From a virus, in the IMG/VR virus record IMGVR_UViG_3300030329_002997, positions 1 through 22,577 of that record: a stretch of DNA of 22,577 nucleotides. One strand, written 5' to 3'. Each line of letters begins with the position of its first letter. Position 1 is the first letter of the stretch. Below, one piece after another: positions 1-22,577 of this stretch. The notes under the pieces were generated by a model. The model saw only the letters and a program-made list of their open reading frames with translations. It did no database searches and was not told where the DNA came from. The position numbers were made by a program, and so were the translations under genes.

Positions 1-77
1 TAAGTCCTTGCGTTTAAATAACTTGCGACCCCTGGGAAAAACAGCGTGACAATCTATCGCTTGCGCGCCGTCTAGCG
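1..77. repeat. Terminal direct repeat, left copy (circular joint)
   Basis: These 77 bases are identical to 22501-22577, the last bases of the window. The methyltransferase frame entering at 22577 continues in phase at 78-84 of the left end. This indicates a circular or terminally redundant 22,500-bp unit. An overlap of exactly 77 bases is also what a de Bruijn assembler with k=77 leaves on a circular contig, so it is not proof of a physical terminal repeat. Confidence 0.95.
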
Positions 78-95: not shown

Positions 96-1103
96 TCAGG
101 AAGGACCCGCAAGCCATCGGATTCCCGGACCTGGCGACAAAGTCCCGGAATTGGCGGAGTTTAGCTTCCGTTCAGCCGGACCGCGTCGACCTCCATCATC
201 CAGTACGATCGCTCCGTCCCAATAGCGAACGGGATCAGAAAGATCGCAACGGATCGTGTTGTTCAGGAATCGATGGGGTCCCCCCGCGATCATAACCGTC
301 CCTTCGATATCGTTATCCGCAATCGTGACCCCGGACGAATAGACATTGGATCCCCATATATGCAGTTCGTATCTATGCCGGACTTGGTGTTCCGCGATTC
401 CGATCATACTGTTCGCCGCGATATAGCCGTCGTCCCCGTAATAATAAATTGCGTGGTCTTTATTGTTTTCCCGGATCTCCCCCTGGTGTAATTCGTAGCG
501 TTTCCCGATATTGCGAAACGCACAATTCATAACAGTCAGACCCGGCGCTTCCCGTCCCCCCAGGATCCCCTGGGTCGTGATACTATGGATCCGGCAGTTG
601 AACAGGGAAACGTGATCCGCGTGTCTTAGTTCGACCCCTTCGACCCCGTGACAGATCGACAGGTTGACCAGGACCGAACGGCGACCGACGACGACCGCGT
701 CCTTCCAGTCCACCAGCAGGAGTTGACCCGGATCCCCTTCTGGGTTTATATAGACTTCGTTTGTTTCCGGGTCGACGTAGAACAGCCGGGTCGCGAAACC
801 CAGGTGGTCGAAGTCTTCGACGCGGGAATAGGCTTCCCCCCCGAATTCGACGACCCCGAACATATGATGGTCGACAAGTTTTTCCCGGGTGATCCGCTTA
901 AAATAATCCCCTTCTTTCGTCCAGTCCGTCGCGGCGAACCCTAGCGAAACAACCACTTGCCCATCCCCTTCGATCGTCAGGTCTTCCCGTTGGGTCGACA
1001 GGGACGGGTAGTTCCCTTCCTTAATAATAAAATTATTACAGTGCAGATTCGCCGAAATGATTTTCGACGGGTCCTGTCCTGGGACGATTTCGATTTCTTT
1101 CAT
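96..1103 (-). CDS. Right-handed beta-helix protein, possible tail spike or depolymerase
   Basis: A 335-aa protein. From about residue 130 to 300 it shows short repeats of the kind V.L.NCRI and V.IADNDIEG, typical of right-handed parallel beta-helix (pectate-lyase-like / NosD-like) folds. In phages this fold is common in tail spikes and polysaccharide-degrading enzymes. No catalytic residues can be assigned and no signal peptide is seen. The start has a good ribosome site (AAAGGA, 8 nt before the ATG). It sits after the early-type genes and just before the methyltransferase, far from the tail genes, so it could instead be an accessory gene. The last ~30 residues are odd: they are encoded by a rearranged out-of-frame copy of part of the tail chaperone gene (118-191), so the C-terminus looks newly made. 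Confidence 0.7.
   Translation of the reverse strand: MKEIEIVPGQDPSKIISANLHCNNFIIKEGNYPSLSTQREDLTIEGDGQVVVSLGFAATDWTKEGDYFKRITREKLVDHHMFGVVEFGGEAYSRVEDFDHLGFATRLFYVDPETNEVYINPEGDPGQLLLVDWKDAVVVGRRSVLVNLSICHGVEGVELRHADHVSLFNCRIHSITTQGILGGREAPGLTVMNCAFRNIGKRYELHQGEIRENNKDHAIYYYGDDGYIAANSMIGIAEHQVRHRYELHIWGSNVYSSGVTIADNDIEGTVMIAGGPHRFLNNTIRCDLSDPVRYWDGAIVLDDGGRRGPAERKLNSANSGTLSPGPGIRWLAGPS
118..191. repeat. 74-bp rearranged copy of tail chaperone sequence (copy A)
   Basis: This stretch has the same 74 bases as 10385-10458 but with two adjacent internal blocks exchanged. The outer parts (118-133 and 169-191) match 10385-10400 and 10436-10458. The 25-bp block at 134-158 matches 10411-10435, and the 10-bp block gtttagcttc at 159-168 matches 10401-10410. 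Here it lies inside the 3' end of the beta-helix gene and is read in a different frame from the chaperone gene. Confidence 0.93.
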
Positions 1104-3150: not shown

Positions 3151-3354
3151 TTAAATTTTCCGATCTATCAGGGTTCCGTCCGGTCGGCGGCGAACGACGC
3201 GGCCGGGGTGTTCGGGGTCCTGGGTGTATAACGTCGCATAGGGTCCTTGTCCGATGATGACCAGGGGATCCAGACCGCCCCGCGGCTGGTCGCCCGCTAC
3301 GACCGGGCGGACCTGGTCCCGTGGTTCATATTCGATTTCTATCTTGATTTTCAT
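3151..3354 (-). CDS. Hypothetical 67-aa protein
   Basis: Starts MKIKIEIEYEPRDQ and contains GQGPYATLYTQD followed by a basic stretch RVVRRRPDG. It is probably a small beta-rich protein. A strong ribosome site (AAGGAAGG) lies before the ATG. It follows the 28-aa membrane peptide gene and precedes the replication candidate by 9 bp. No family recognised. Confidence 0.6.
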   Translation of the reverse strand: MKIKIEIEYEPRDQVRPVVAGDQPRGGLDPLVIIGQGPYATLYTQDPEHPGRVVRRRPDGTLIDRKI

Positions 3355-3376
3355 GGGGTCCTTCCTTGCCAGGGGA

Positions 3377-3463
3377 TCAGAATTTCCGAAGTATTAACCA
3401 GTAACATATCGCCAGGAATACGGCGGTCACATTCGCGATCGCGATCAGGTACAGAATTTCCAT
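3377..3463 (-). CDS. 28-aa single-pass membrane micropeptide
   Basis: The frame from ATG 3463 to stop 3377 encodes MEILYLIAIANVTAVFLAIC followed by YWLILRKF, almost entirely one hydrophobic segment with a basic end. AAAGG lies 8 nt before the ATG. Codon choice matches the neighbours. Peptides like this can act as membrane regulators or antiholins, but nothing here shows the function. It lies just after a strong hairpin at 3486-3521. Confidence 0.55.
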   Translation of the reverse strand: MEILYLIAIANVTAVFLAICYWLILRKF

Positions 3464-3480
3464 CGACGGGGCCTTTCGCT

Positions 3481-3521
3481 AAAATCCCCCGGTGACAGGA
3501 AGGACATCCAGTCACCGGGGG
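3481..3521 (-). terminator. Perfect 11-bp hairpin, terminator or attenuator
   Basis: CCCCCGGTGAC (3486-3496) pairs perfectly with GTCACCGGGGG (3511-3521) around a 14-nt loop. On the minus strand the stem is followed by ATTTTAGC. It lies 12 bp after the small gene ending at 3533 and before the next start at 3463, so it probably reduces transcription into the downstream genes. Confidence 0.5.
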
Positions 3522-3532
3522 CGGGGAGAAAA

Positions 3533-3771
3533 TCAGCCGTTTACGTGTGACCGGTAGCCCAATTCATTATCCCGCTTATGGATCCAGGCGGTCCAGCCGT
3601 TCGGTTCAGAAACCGACCGGTATTGACCAAGGTCCGCGGGGCGGTCTTTCCGGGGTTCGTTGCTATAGTCATTGCAGACAATAAAAAAAGCTAAACAGGT
3701 TTCCGGGTCGTTAGGTGCGCTAAGGATCCGCGGTCCTGTTCAGCTTTGGTTTTTTTCGTGATTGATTTCAT
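3533..3771 (-). CDS. Small protein gene with an apparent -1 frame change (possible pseudogene or frameshift)
   Basis: The frame from 3739 to the stop at 3533 is open and has codon use like the neighbours. It reads ...APNDPETCLAFFIVCNDY and ends WIHKRDNELGYRSHVNG. It has no ATG, GTG or TTG. A start with AGGTG spaced 4 nt upstream exists at 3771 (MKSITKKTKAEQDRGS), but in the zero frame, which stops at 3691. A -1 shift between 3739 and 3694 would join them into ~79 aa. No classical X XXY YYZ heptamer is seen there, so a point indel, an assembly error, or unusual recoding are all possible. The tail module, by contrast, has a clear slippery site. The product is not recognised. Confidence 0.5.
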
Positions 3772-3781
3772 AGCGCACCTA
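3712..3781 (-). promoter_or_regulatory. 11-bp inverted repeat that can hide the ribosome site
   Basis: TAGGTGCGCTA on the minus strand (3771-3781) contains the AGGTG ribosome site and the first base of the ATG at 3771. Its perfect complement TAGCGCACCTA occurs 48 nt downstream (3712-3722). In the transcript these could pair and block initiation. As DNA they could also be a paired operator. The role is inferred; the repeat itself is plainly visible. Confidence 0.55.
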
Positions 3782-4002
3782 TGGTTTATCTTCTTTCAAT
3801 ATACCCCATAGTCGGATCGAATGCAAAATTTCTACAACGAATTCGAACGGTAGCTGCGCAAAACCGCGTTGAAGGGCCAAAAATGGACGAAATATATCAT
3901 ATAAGAAACATATTTCCCGGTCCGGTCTGGGTGATTCTTAACAATATCTTTTGGGGTCTGGTGTGTCTGTGCGTCGCCAGTCGTTACCAGGACCGCCTGG
4001 AA
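3772..4002. other. Intergenic regulatory region without a supported gene
   Basis: About 230 bp between the membrane-protein genes and the small-gene operon. It is AT-rich, with several TATA-like stretches near 3893-3912. Besides the promoter near 3.8 kb I see no open frame on the minus strand. A plus-strand frame begins at 3781, but it lacks a ribosome site and typical codon use. This is the natural place to look for control elements or an origin. Confidence 0.5.
3798..3826 (-). promoter_or_regulatory. Sigma70-like promoter for the leftward small-gene operon
   Basis: On the minus strand TTGCAT (3826-3821) is followed after exactly 17 nt by TATATT (3803-3798). The -10 box matches consensus at 5 of 6 positions, the -35 box at 3 of 6. 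It lies ~27 nt upstream of the ATG at 3771 in the only sizeable gap without a gene, which is AT-rich compared with the rest of the genome. Confidence 0.55.
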
Positions 4003-4197
4003 TCACGGTCGGTTCGACGGGTCGATCATATCCGAGCGCCGATATCGCCGCGGACGACGACGCCAGATCCGCCGGAATCCCCATAGGATCAGGCCGGCCA
4101 GGACCGCGACGGTCAGACCGACCCCGACCTGGGCGGGTATCGATGGTCCGGGATCGATTTCGACCCGGACGGTCTGTTGTTCCTGAATAATTCCCAT
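4003..4197 (-). CDS. Small single-pass membrane protein, lysis candidate
   Basis: 64 aa: a short acidic N-terminal part, one hydrophobic segment at ~23-42 (QVGVGLTVAVLAGLILWGF), then a strongly basic tail (RRIWRRRPRRYRRS). It starts one base after the stop of the coiled-coil membrane protein and lacks its own strong ribosome site, so it is probably coupled to it. Together they resemble small phage holin, spanin or antiholin pairs, though no family can be named. Confidence 0.55.
   Translation of the reverse strand: MGIIQEQQTVRVEIDPGPSIPAQVGVGLTVAVLAGLILWGFRRIWRRRPRRYRRSDMIDPSNRP

Positions 4198-5638: not shown

Positions 5639-5642
<4 letters not shown>
4470..5642 (-). CDS. Family-2-like glycosyltransferase with N-terminal cysteine cluster
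   Basis: 390 aa. Residues ~81-115 hold a cysteine cluster (CNVCEHHRRGTCQKCGC, then a later Cys at 110) of the kind seen as a small zinc-binding DUF6171-type domain in phage proteins. From ~119 the GT-A fold begins: PVSVLIPARNEQYLERTIQSL, then WVFLDAWDD (150-158), FRVDGHCNFSPGWD (203-216; DxD-like metal/sugar-nucleotide site) and a GYDEQFYHWGESGVEWS acceptor-side segment (~294-310). The start is GTG at 5642, overlapping the stop of the cysteine-rich gene, with GGAAG upstream. Placed directly after adhesin genes, it may glycosylate virion proteins or alter the host surface; that part is inference. Confidence 0.85.
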
Positions 5643-6232
<590 letters not shown>

Positions 6233-8323: not shown

Positions 8324-9712
8324 TTAGAAGGTCACTGTCTGGGTCTGGTCGCCCCGCATTAATTCGAGGGTCCCGTTGATCCGTTCCATGATTTCGATCT
8401 GCTTAAATTGGGCTTCGTTGTTCCGTTTCCGCTGTGCGGAGGCTTTCTTCGCCGCGTCGACGACCGGGTCCGCTTGATGTAAGAACGCGGAGGCGCCGGT
8501 TAAAAACCGCGTATTTTGAGCGTTGACCCCGATCCCAAAAGGACCCGATCCGCGGGGTCCGGTCCGACCTTTTCGACCCCCGCCGGACCCGTCCGGCGCC
8601 TGGAGATTGTCGTCCGACAGGTCCGGGATATTCCATTTCGACAGGTTCCCGAAATTAAAGACATCTCCCAAATCCATCCGTTCGAACGCAAGGTCCTGGA
8701 TCTGTTTCCCCAGGTCGAAAAATATCGCGTCCATCTTGGCGTCCAGTTCCTTCATCGCGGCGCGATGCGGGGCCCCCCCGGAATTGGGAAAGGGTTCCGG
8801 TTCCGTGTCCGTGGAATCTAGTTTGTATCTTACGGGTTCGGGGACCAGCGCACCGAATCCGAACGACTTGACCAGACTGGACGCCATCCAAGCTCGCATC
8901 TTGTGGTACTGGTGTTGGGCGGATAGGATCGCGATTTCCATAACTTTCGGTAGGTTCGCGATCGCGACTTCGACCGCTGAAAATATCATAATTAACCCGT
9001 TAGCGAAGTTTTGTAAAATCGGGGCCAGGCCGGAAACGACCATCAATTGCAGACCTTCAAACAGGCGTCCCATCCGGTCCAGGGCATCGTTCGCGTCGAC
9101 GACTTTATCCGCAAAGTCCTGGTCGATGACAATCCCCAGGGCGCGGGCTTGATCCATCATCCCCTTGATCCCGGCCGCACCCAGATTCAGGACCCGGACC
9201 ATATCCGCCCCTTCCGAATCGAACAGCTTGAAGGCACGCGCCAGCTTGATCCCGGCGTTGTCGACTTCCCCAAAGGCTTCCGCCAGGACCATAAGCTTTT
9301 CGTCCAGGTCCAGGGCGATCAGCTTTTCGGCGTCCAAGCCCAGGTCCGCGATCGTGTTCTTCGCTTCCCCCCCATCTTCGGAGGCTTCCGCCATGCGGCG
9401 CGTCATCCGCTGGACCGCCATTGTCATTTTATTGAGTTCGACCCCGGTCTGTCCGGCGACGAATCCCAGACCCGACAGGACATCCGTCGTCGTGCCAAGT
9501 TTTTCCGCCTGTTTTGCCAGTTTGTCGACTTCCCGGGTTGTTTCTTTCAGTCCCCGGATCAGGGCGCGGCCCCCCAGGAAAGCCCCGAAACCGATCGCCA
9601 GGGTCTTGACCCGGCCGGACAGGATGGCCATCTGGCGGTCTAGGCTCTTGAACAGGCGGGTCGCGTTCCGGTCTTCCCCCTTGACGATGATATCGAGTCG
9701 GCGTTTAGCCAT
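8324..9712 (-). CDS. Tape measure protein
   Basis: 462 aa. The helical N-terminal part (RNATRLFKSLDRQMAILSGR, LKETTREVDKLAKQAEKLG) fits the phage tail tape measure family, with a glycine-rich hydrophobic segment at ~35-53 and a second hydrophobic region at ~223-262 (VVSGLAPILQNFANG). A Gly/Arg-rich linker (~373-393) precedes a short helical C-terminus. At about 1.5 Å per residue the tail would be near 70 nm, a short siphovirus tail. Residues 364-372 (DLSDDNLQA) are encoded by a 28-bp sequence also found in the gene at 10686-11054. The gene follows the chaperone pair, as in most long-tailed phages. Confidence 0.85.
   Translation of the reverse strand: MAKRRLDIIVKGEDRNATRLFKSLDRQMAILSGRVKTLAIGFGAFLGGRALIRGLKETTREVDKLAKQAEKLGTTTDVLSGLGFVAGQTGVELNKMTMAVQRMTRRMAEASEDGGEAKNTIADLGLDAEKLIALDLDEKLMVLAEAFGEVDNAGIKLARAFKLFDSEGADMVRVLNLGAAGIKGMMDQARALGIVIDQDFADKVVDANDALDRMGRLFEGLQLMVVSGLAPILQNFANGLIMIFSAVEVAIANLPKVMEIAILSAQHQYHKMRAWMASSLVKSFGFGALVPEPVRYKLDSTDTEPEPFPNSGGAPHRAAMKELDAKMDAIFFDLGKQIQDLAFERMDLGDVFNFGNLSKWNIPDLSDDNLQAPDGSGGGRKGRTGPRGSGPFGIGVNAQNTRFLTGASAFLHQADPVVDAAKKASAQRKRNNEAQFKQIEIMERINGTLELMRGDQTQTVTF
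8597..8624. repeat. 28-bp exact dispersed repeat, copy in tape measure gene
   Basis: Identical to 10911-10938 over 28 bases and read in the same frame in both genes, giving DLSDDNLQA. Flanking sequence is unrelated. Confidence 0.9.
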
Positions 9713-9763: not shown

Positions 9764-9811
9764 AGCACTTCCCATAGGGAAGCACTCAGCGCTTCCCATA
9801 GGGAAACACTC
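9764..9811 (-). repeat. Two tandem 24-bp units, each a hairpin, before the tape measure gene
   Basis: Units 9788-9811 and 9764-9787 match at 22 of 24 bases. Each can fold into a 10-bp stem around TAT (core TTCCC-TAT-GGGAA). The two differences keep pairing through G-U and G-C exchange. Between the units and the tape measure start lies an AT- and purine-rich leader (9722-9763) with AGGG close to the ATG. This could be an mRNA structure or processing signal, or a paired operator near a promoter. Confidence 0.75.
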
Positions 9812-9849: not shown

Positions 9850-10517
9850 CTATTTCCGCTTCGCTTCCCGTTCGGTAATGACCTGTTTCCATCGTGTCCG
9901 TTCTCCGGCGATAAATGGCATCGCCCGACAAAACCAGGCGTCCTGGTCCAGCGATCCGCCCGGGACCGGCCAGATCCCGAATTCTTCCGCCAAGGTCGCC
10001 AATTCGATTATTTCGACCATATCCGCCCCGTATTGAGTCGGACAAGTCGACAGGTTCCAGGACCCCGATCCGCCGCAGATATCGCATCCAGGATCACCGT
10101 CGCAGTAATTACAACCGATGTCGTGACCGGTCGGGATCAGGTCTTTGCAGTCGCCGCGGCAGTCTCGACAGAGTTCCCCGAATCCGACTGCGCAGGCGAC
10201 CCGGATCCTTTTTTTTCGTCGGGATCCGGTCCGGCCAGGCCGGTCTGGTACTGGAAAAGGAATTCCATAAGGTCTTCCGCGGTCATCCAGTCCAGGGGGT
10301 CCCCCTGGCCGTTGATATGGACGACCATTTCCGCCGCCTGGATCGCCTGGTCGATCGCGTCGACCCCGACCGATCCCGCTTCTGCGGATTCCCGGACCTG
10401 GTTTAGCTTCGCGACAAAGTCCCGGAATTGGCGGACGTTCAGCCGGACCGCGTCGACCGTCAGGCCACTCTGCAGTTTGACCGGTAGAATATCGCCAGGG
10501 GCCGATCCTTTAGCCAT
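9850..10517 (-). CDS. Tail assembly chaperone, long frameshifted form (gpGT-like)
   Basis: The first 103 residues are shared with the short chaperone. A -1 slip on A AAA AAA (10215-10209) enters a frame open from 10209 to the stop at 9850, adding 119 residues for a 222-aa product. The extension starts RIRVACAVGFGELCRDCRGD and has nine cysteines in its first ~56 residues (CRDCRGDC, CNYC, CDIC, and single ones), suggesting zinc binding. Its end is helical and basic (RTRWKQVITEREAKRK). G/GT chaperone pairs made by frameshifting just upstream of the tape measure gene are known from lambda and relatives. They coat the tape measure during tail assembly. The cysteine-rich T part is unusual to me. 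Confidence 0.8.
10137..10517 (-). CDS. Tail assembly chaperone, short form (gpG-like)
   Basis: 126 aa, mostly helical and acidic towards the C-terminus (DAIDQAIQAAEMVVHINGQG, LDWMTAEDLMEFLFQYQTG). The size, place between the tail tube and tape measure genes, and the slippery site near its end fit the tail chaperone G family. The start ATG 10517 overlaps the stop of the preceding 54-aa gene. Residues ~21-43 are encoded by the 74-bp segment that occurs rearranged at 118-191. Confidence 0.8.
   Translation of the reverse strand: MAKGSAPGDILPVKLQSGLTVDAVRLNVRQFRDFVAKLNQVRESAEAGSVGVDAIDQAIQAAEMVVHINGQGDPLDWMTAEDLMEFLFQYQTGLAGPDPDEKKGSGSPAQSDSGNSVETAAATAKT
10150..10215 (-). promoter_or_regulatory. 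Programmed -1 frameshift signal
   Basis: Slippery heptamer A AAA AAA in frame GAA AAA AAA GGA (10215-10209), then an 8-nt spacer, then a two-part hairpin. The lower stem GTCGCC/GGCGAC is at 10200-10195 and 10155-10150. The upper stem GCAGTC/GACTGC is at 10191-10186 and 10164-10159. Shift site, spacing and structure match the classical -1 frameshift layout. Confidence 0.85.
10385..10458. repeat. 74-bp segment copied elsewhere (copy B, in chaperone gene)
   Basis: The counterpart of 118-191. Block order here is 16 bp, 10 bp (10401-10410), 25 bp (10411-10435), 23 bp. It lies in frame within the chaperone gene, where the encoded residues (VDAVRLNVRQF onward) look normal, so this is probably the original. 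Confidence 0.93.
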
Positions 10518-10685: not shown

Positions 10686-11054
10686 TCAGTCCGCGTTCGC
10701 CGCGGCCAGTTTCTTCTGTGCCTGTTCCTTCTGGGACGGGGTCATGACTTCCAGGCAGCGCCGGACCTGGATATCGTTTTCGAATTTCGCGTCGGGAAAT
10801 GCCGCCCGGACCAGGGCCAGGGTCCGCGGGTCGGTCCGCAAAACGACCCCATCGGGATCCGGATCCCCGGCGTCGTCCAGGGCGTTGTCGGCGTTCAGTT
10901 CGTCGATCGCCGCCTGGAGATTGTCGTCCGACAGGTCCATGGCGTTTATCGCGTCCGACAGGTCCCCCTTGTTCATTCCGTCAGTCCCGTCGATCCCCAG
11001 GATCCCGGCCAGGGACGCCAGGTCCCCTTTTCTCAGTTTCGCTAGTTCGGCCAT
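10686..11054 (-). CDS. SAP/HeH-like 122-aa protein in the tail module
   Basis: Residues ~5-50 contain repeated short helix pairs (LRKGDLASLAGILGI, MNKGDLSDAINAMD, LSDDNLQAAIDELNA) resembling SAP or HeH/Rho-N-type helix-extension-helix motifs, which often bind nucleic acid or stiffen phage connectors. The middle is acidic (DALDDAGD-type, DPDPDG) and the end helical. AAAGGAATTATTA before the ATG gives a good ribosome site. Residues 40-48 share a 28-bp exact sequence with the tape measure gene. It may be a neck or tail protein; the function is not known. Confidence 0.6.
   Translation of the reverse strand: MAELAKLRKGDLASLAGILGIDGTDGMNKGDLSDAINAMDLSDDNLQAAIDELNADNALDDAGDPDPDGVVLRTDPRTLALVRAAFPDAKFENDIQVRRCLEVMTPSQKEQAQKKLAAANAD
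10911..10938. repeat. 28-bp exact dispersed repeat, copy in the SAP/HeH-like gene
   Basis: The second copy of 8597-8624. Here the encoded DLSDDNLQA fits the local helix-repeat pattern (compare GDLSDAINA ten residues earlier), which suggests this is the source and the tape measure copy is derived. Confidence 0.9.
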
Positions 11055-21717: not shown

Positions 21718-22577
21718 TTAAAACATTTTGACCTGGGCCGCTTCCCGTTCGATTCGCCGGGCGGCGACTTCGCAGATCTTCTCCGACTTTTCGACGCAGA
21801 TCCATTTCTGGCCGATGGTTTCACAGGCGACCCCCAGGGTCCCGGATCCGGCGAACGGGTCCAGGATGACACCGTCCGGTTTACAGATCAGGGCCAGGTG
21901 GCGGATCAGGTCCAGGGGCTTTTCCGCTATATGGTTTTTCTTTTCCCCCTTGACCGGGAGGAATTCCAGGACGTTCTTCAGGGTCCCCTTCCCTTCGTTC
22001 GGGAGTCCCTTCGACCCATAAAGCATATATTCCGCGGACGACGAAAATCGTCCCTTCTGCATCCGGACCCCGGGCTTGTGCCAGGTCACGATGTTCCGCC
22101 AGATCCATCCGCCGCCTTGTATCGCGTCGGACATCGTCGGGAGTTGCCGCCAGTCGGTGAAACAGATCAGCACCGCGCCGGGGTTCGCGGCGTCGTGAAG
22201 GCGGGTCAGCCATAACATCGCCCAGGCCAGGAAGGACCGCTGGTCCCGGTTGTCCCCCAGGAATTCGTCCCAGCAGGTCATAAGGCTGTCACTATAGACA
22301 TATTTGACGGAGGGCGCCTGGGACCGATCCCCGCGGAACATCCCGCCGGACGAATAGGGCGGGTCGGTCAGGATCAGGTCCGCCCCGGGGAGATCCCCGG
22401 CGATCTCCAGGGTGTCCCCGCAATAGAGGGATCCGAGGTCTGTTTTAAAATAGGGTTCGATCGTAAATCCTTTATATTTCTTAACTTGTGACCCCCGCCG
22501 TAAGTCCTTGCGTTTAAATAACTTGCGACCCCTGGGAAAAACAGCGTGACAATCTATCGCTTGCGCGCCGTCTAGCG
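21718..22577 (-). CDS. DNA methyltransferase, beta-class (N6-adenine/N4-cytosine type), main part
   Basis: The full gene runs across the joint from ATG 84 to stop 21718 and encodes 288 aa. Motif IV is ADLILTDPPYSSGG (DPPY at ~74-77, encoded at 22345-22380), and motif I is ILDPFAGSGTLGVA (~240-253), near the C-terminus. The order IV before I is typical of beta-class amino-methyltransferases that methylate adenine N6 or cytosine N4. The target-recognition region (~125-225) gives no target. No restriction enzyme gene is near, so it is probably an orphan enzyme protecting phage DNA or adjusting its expression. A linear reading of the window loses the first 81 residues if it starts at ATG 22341, including DPPY. 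Confidence 0.88.
   Translation of the reverse strand, partial: LDGAQAIDCHAVFPRGRKLFKRKDLRRGSQVKKYKGFTIEPYFKTDLGSLYCGDTLEIAGDLPGADLILTDPPYSSGGMFRGDRSQAPSVKYVYSDSLMTCWDEFLGDNRDQRSFLAWAMLWLTRLHDAANPGAVLICFTDWRQLPTMSDAIQGGGWIWRNIVTWHKPGVRMQKGRFSSSAEYMLYGSKGLPNEGKGTLKNVLEFLPVKGEKKNHIAEKPLDLIRHLALICKPDGVILDPFAGSGTLGVACETIGQKWICVEKSEKICEVAARRIEREAAQVKMF
22501..22577. repeat. Terminal direct repeat, right copy
   Basis: Identical to 1-77. It codes for part of the methyltransferase N-terminus, and the frame remains open through it. See the left copy for the interpretation. Confidence 0.95.

Follow-up and report, generated by a model that had tools for sequence, protein, structure and literature searches.

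A 74-base copy of a putative tail-chaperone gene segment with two exchanged blocks in a phage record: probable filler insertion or library artefact

The virus record IMGVR_UViG_3300030329_002997, all 22,577 bases of which were analysed (the window), contains two segments, A and B, that consist of the same 74 bases with two internal blocks in exchanged order. String comparison gave P16-C25-Bk10-Q23 for A (118-191) and P16-Bk10-C25-Q23 for B (10385-10458), where the numbers are block lengths in bp, with 0 mismatches, 0 bases lost and 0 bases gained. This agrees with the sequence-only reading, according to which a 10-bp and a 25-bp block were exchanged within 74 shared, mismatch-free bases. The likeliest origins of segment A are careless joining of DNA, which would have left it as a scar-like filler, or an artefact of the library. 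The blocks of A and the second copy are as follows.

118 to 133, plus strand: block P of copy A, equal to 10385-10400 (16 bp, or 17 bp counting a shared G)
134 to 158, plus strand: block C of copy A, placed before the 10-bp block, equal to 10411-10435 (25 bp)
159 to 168, plus strand: block Bk of copy A, displaced by 25 bp, equal to 10401-10410 (10 bp)
169 to 191, plus strand: block Q of copy A, equal to 10436-10458 (23 bp)
10385 to 10458, plus strand: copy B, the donor, with the blocks arranged P-Bk-C-Q; its coding strand is the minus strand, where it reads VDAVRLNVRQFRDFVAKLNQVRES

The junctions proposed earlier (133/134, 158/159 and 168/169) were found to hold, the first with a one-base ambiguity due to the shared G. 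The argument that a plain duplication cannot yield the block order of A was likewise borne out by the exact P-C-Bk-Q versus P-Bk-C-Q arrangement. Only two copies were present in the window, one in each order, and B is located 10.3 kb from A in the same circle. The swap was exactly conservative, with each donor base used once, and all pieces of A had the same orientation as in the donor.

In order-3 Markov shuffles (n=40), the longest exact repeat did not exceed 19 bp per 22.5 kb, and no cluster similar to that formed by the exact A/B pieces of 17, 25 and 23 bp was observed. The A/B pair ranked first in a 9-mer cluster scan, with 71 covered bases compared with 29-40 for the top pair of each of 6 shuffles. 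The odds that the 10-bp block alone would equal the 10 bases omitted between P and C were approximately 4^-10. A swap detector applied to the window and to ten other phage sequences (395 kb) found only the window's own swap; given this small sample, such swaps can be called not common, and no more than that.

The direction of copying was deduced from the gene in which B lies.

10137 to 10517, minus strand: donor gene encoding 126 aa; synteny with RcOceanus genes 13-16 puts it in the position of the tail assembly chaperone

This gene is located between the tail tube and tape-measure genes, and the corresponding slot is annotated as tail assembly chaperone in RcOceanus, a distantly related Rhodobacter phage. 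No family match was found for the 126-aa product; the name tail chaperone, which the gene had been given earlier, is therefore justified by position but not by family. Codon usage was strong for the donor segment in its own frame (approximately 13-22 bits per 60 nt), whereas A scored approximately -4 to 1 per 60 nt in the frame of the beta-helix open reading frame (ORF) that contains it. When the order of A was placed in the donor gene, the translation became NGS*, and this stop codon ruled out the order of A as the ancestral one in the chaperone gene. Because the order of A would stop this gene and because B lies in a strong coding frame while A scores near zero, B is, as judged from coding content, the donor and ancestral copy, and A is derived from it.

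The first 77 bases of the window (1-77) were identical to the last 77 (22501-22577) in an exact string comparison. Since both ends are the same, the record is a circle of 22,500 bp, and the 77-bp repeat is an assembly k-mer overlap. It has been reported that assemblers leave k-mer overlaps, commonly of 55, 77 or 99 bases, on circular templates, with the break point being random (PMC8116208). An end repeat of 127 bp (1-127 and 41333-41459) was also noted in the Bordetella phage record PV870137.1 (L012), which is designated 'complete', and it looks like a residual assembly k-mer overlap.

The gene set was that of a small tailed phage (terminase, portal, protease-capsid fusion, head decoration, neck, tail tube and tape measure), and a methyltransferase, a replication-initiator-like protein and a glycosyltransferase were also recognised. 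Family matches across the 22.5-kb circle revealed no lysin, integrase or recombinase, which may mean either that their families are not known or that sequence is missing. No RNA families or tRNAs were found in the window. A region of approximately 650 bp (3354-4003) contains no convincing gene and may be a regulatory or origin region. A second short dispersed copy, unswapped (8597-8624 and 10911-10938; 28 bp exact, 30/31), is shared by the tape-measure gene and gene 10686-11054; the frame is the same in both, and each reads DLSDDNLQA. Two 24-bp tandem copies with the palindrome TTCCCATAGGGAA are present at 9764-9811 between the tape-measure and chaperone genes, and hexamer repeats of the GGGGTC type at 6069-6156 encode a PTPTPT stretch in gene 5639-6232.

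Segment A is located at the boundary of two genes on the minus strand.

96 to 1103, minus strand: ORF of 335 aa with similarity to right-handed beta-helix proteins (PF13229, E 4e-5, below the gathering cut-off)
21718 to 22461, minus strand: N4/N6 DNA methyltransferase

Read in the frame of the beta-helix ORF, A gives GRRGPAERKLNSANSGTLSPGPGI. It had been suggested that A gave the protein a new, out-of-frame C-terminus of about 24 residues. The frame was as claimed, and the whole tail past '...AIVLDDG', which includes WLAGPS and derives from A and the sequence beyond it, comprises 31 residues. This end appears to be non-native and incidental, and nothing suggests selection for it; single-sequence structure prediction of the beta-helix protein was unusable (mean pLDDT 34). 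Both block orders leave the beta-helix frame open. When A was removed and its flanks were joined, the beta-helix frame ran open into the methyltransferase frame. No functional conclusion was drawn from this, because the stretch immediately before the methyltransferase scored as non-coding by codon score.

Homologues of the methyltransferase begin near 22461-22446, and no ATG, GTG or TTG is present there in the window. The sequence AAAGGA was noted 6 nt upstream of an in-frame ATC (22461), and the closest canonical start codons, two ATGs at 84 and 117, lie beyond the stretch that scores as non-coding (22461-22485 and 84-117). The in-frame ATG at 117-115 adjoins A. No promoter or terminator was found at A. 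Nothing suggests a function for A, and it may be regarded as a mutational curiosity.

Analysis of the junctions showed almost no microhomology: 1, 0 and 0 bases at the three internal junctions and 0 and 0 bases at the two outer ones. Extended homology between the flanks of A and B did not exceed that in shuffles. In a post hoc model of uniform random jumps with three free internal jumps, an exact conservative swap was obtained in 4e-6 of the valid jump sets, which makes three independent template switches a poor explanation. The sequence-only reading had proposed replication template switching, and switching guided by short homologies was not supported on either count: at least 2 shared bases are expected for it at each junction, and the exact permutation is too rare among random jump sets. 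Its other proposal, recombination at a short signal, also lacked support, as did a shufflon, because the cut points (CCTG|GTTT, CTTC|GCGA and GGA|CGTT) share no common motif or short site, and a recombinase was not found. A diversity-generating retroelement was rejected on the basis of 0 substitutions in 74 bp and the lack of a reverse transcriptase family match.

The donor contains one structural feature that may be relevant to the displaced block.

10388 to 10428, no strand assigned: imperfect inverted repeat with arms ATTCCCGGAC and GTCCCGGAAT, 9/10 pairs and a 21-nt loop

The 10-bp block Bk falls inside the loop of this repeat; in A, the same arms are located at 121-130 and 142-151 and enclose 11 nt. 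The inverted repeat would help a polymerase to skip the 10-bp block. This is suggestive only, because approximately 0.13 such repeats are expected per 74 bp (in approximately 13% of 74-bp stretches) and the stability of the donor hairpin was ordinary. Folding of the whole DNA segment was not significant for either the donor or A.

The explanation to which we give about even chances is that A is a filler insertion: 74 bases from the tail-chaperone gene, rejoined or copied in pieces out of order. According to this scheme, DNA would have broken, or replication stalled, where the beta-helix gene meets the methyltransferase, and the 74 bases, taken from this phage genome or from a sister one, would have been captured or copied into the site. 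Rejoining or copying would have brought the four pieces P, Bk, C and Q of the donor into the order P-C-Bk-Q, with every base used once. Two homology-free routes may be considered. In the first, fragments of one donor strand would be end-joined. In the second, a polymerase would skip the 10-nt block, possibly as a hairpin loop, and copy on; the skipped single-stranded part would be filled up to the duplex, and copying would then resume at the next uncopied base. Putative elements of this scheme are the break, the enzymes involved and the filling-in of the skipped part. The conservative swap combined with a microhomology of 0-1 base fits cut-and-rejoin or once-only copying better than three independent microhomology-guided jumps, and the uniform orientation of the pieces suits single-strand processes. 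Family matches among the phage genes revealed neither Ku nor ligase D nor a recombinase.

The strongest competing explanation, which is possible although less probable, is a chimera formed in vitro, during amplification or while the library was prepared: in one molecule, a scrambled piece of the tail region would have linked the beta-helix gene to the methyltransferase, and this molecule would have entered the assembled circle. In that case, other sequence, or real ends, may exist at A in the true genome. About a third of the weight was left to an artefact because the window is a single record without reads. The record is metagenome-derived, perfect identity is expected of an artefact, and A lies in a terminase-proximal gap of low coding score that may hold a packaging site. 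The lack of a recognised lysin in the 22.5-kb circle also means that sequence could be missing. However, with k=77, the junction k-mers would require reads extending approximately 76 bases past A on both sides, so one chimeric 150-base read would be insufficient. It was shown for chimeras produced in phi29 multiple displacement amplification (MDA) that 85% were inverted, that direct joins accounted for 11/475 (<10 kb) and 58/475 (>10 kb), and that microhomology of at least 2 bases was found in 90.9% and 27.6% of these direct joins, respectively (PMC1855051). Like A, such chimeras join segments of one genome with little or no homology, but near ones are usually microhomologous (PMC1855051), and five consecutive joins, all direct, would be odd for such a process.

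The artefact concern raised earlier, that A lies close to the contig joint, was legitimate in that A starts 40 bp past the exact 77-bp repeat. It was weakened by the finding that the joint is an ordinary k-mer overlap, such circles being broken at random (PMC8116208), and the distance of 40 bp is probably incidental. Assembler error at k=77 was rejected, since it needs a shared repeat of at least k and the longest exact A-B repeat is 25 bp; the assembler could not have built the order of A from B reads. A strain-variant branch at A was also rejected as the cause of the joint, because the branching k-mer would be expected at 41-117 or 192-268 and not at 1-77.

It is improbable that A arose in two steps, in which a plain P-Bk-C-Q copy was inserted and the 10-bp block was then moved by 25 bp within A, for example by slippage or a second repair. 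An unswapped intermediate would have been tolerated, as either order keeps the beta-helix frame open, and the genome contains the unswapped 28-bp dispersed copy elsewhere; however, two rare events would have had to occur in a copy without a point mutation, and the second would still have been exactly conservative. Least credible by far is a programmed or selected origin, in which a site-specific recombinase shuffles the blocks or A is kept to end the beta-helix ORF before the methyltransferase: the opening of the frame on removal of A and the adjoining in-frame ATG speak for it, but no recombinase was recognised, the three cut points have no motif in common, only two copies in two orders exist, the coding score is negative from the upstream ATGs to the methyltransferase proper, and a promoter and terminator are absent at the site.

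Protein and pattern scans of viral_contigs, genome_contigs, phage and plasmid records revealed no close relatives with or without A; the only kin were distant (MCP at 38% in L004 and 33% in L005, portal at 21% in L017). The filler may accordingly represent either an insertion or a replacement of resident sequence.

Short-patch double illegitimate recombination, reportedly described by Harms et al. in PNAS in 2016 (doi 10.1073/pnas.1615819114, cited in PMC6321871), is one related process. Events of this type are reported to involve one contiguous segment joined at microhomologies. The 74-bp segment A resembles their products in being a short segment of the same genome that turns up at an unrelated site in a system of bacterial type, but A is internally permuted and its outer joints have 0 bases of microhomology. 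Templated insertions, or filler DNA, at end-joining junctions are described mainly in eukaryotes, for example in plant break repair (PMC10923293, PMC5217109). A is similar to such filler in matching a donor sequence located elsewhere in its genome and possibly in consisting of several pieces, whereas it differs in using every donor base once; no end-joining enzyme was recognised among the genes of the phage itself. The feature that is new is an exactly conservative swap with 0-1 base of junction microhomology.

We tentatively suggest, while considering it doubtful, that A represents a real class of phage mutation: the blocks of a short donor would be captured or copied in a changed order, each base once and with no microhomology, and gap-limited copying or fragment rejoining would yield a conservative block swap within a filler insertion. 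The block swap leaves knowledge of the phage's genes unchanged. If A is a library artefact, caution is needed when small rearrangements are read from single metagenome contigs. If A is present in phage DNA, phage filler insertions can hold conservatively permuted donor blocks, which would be overlooked by ordinary duplication searches and by homology-guided models; a rotated core between same-diagonal flanks would provide a simple signature for which phage genomes can be scanned.
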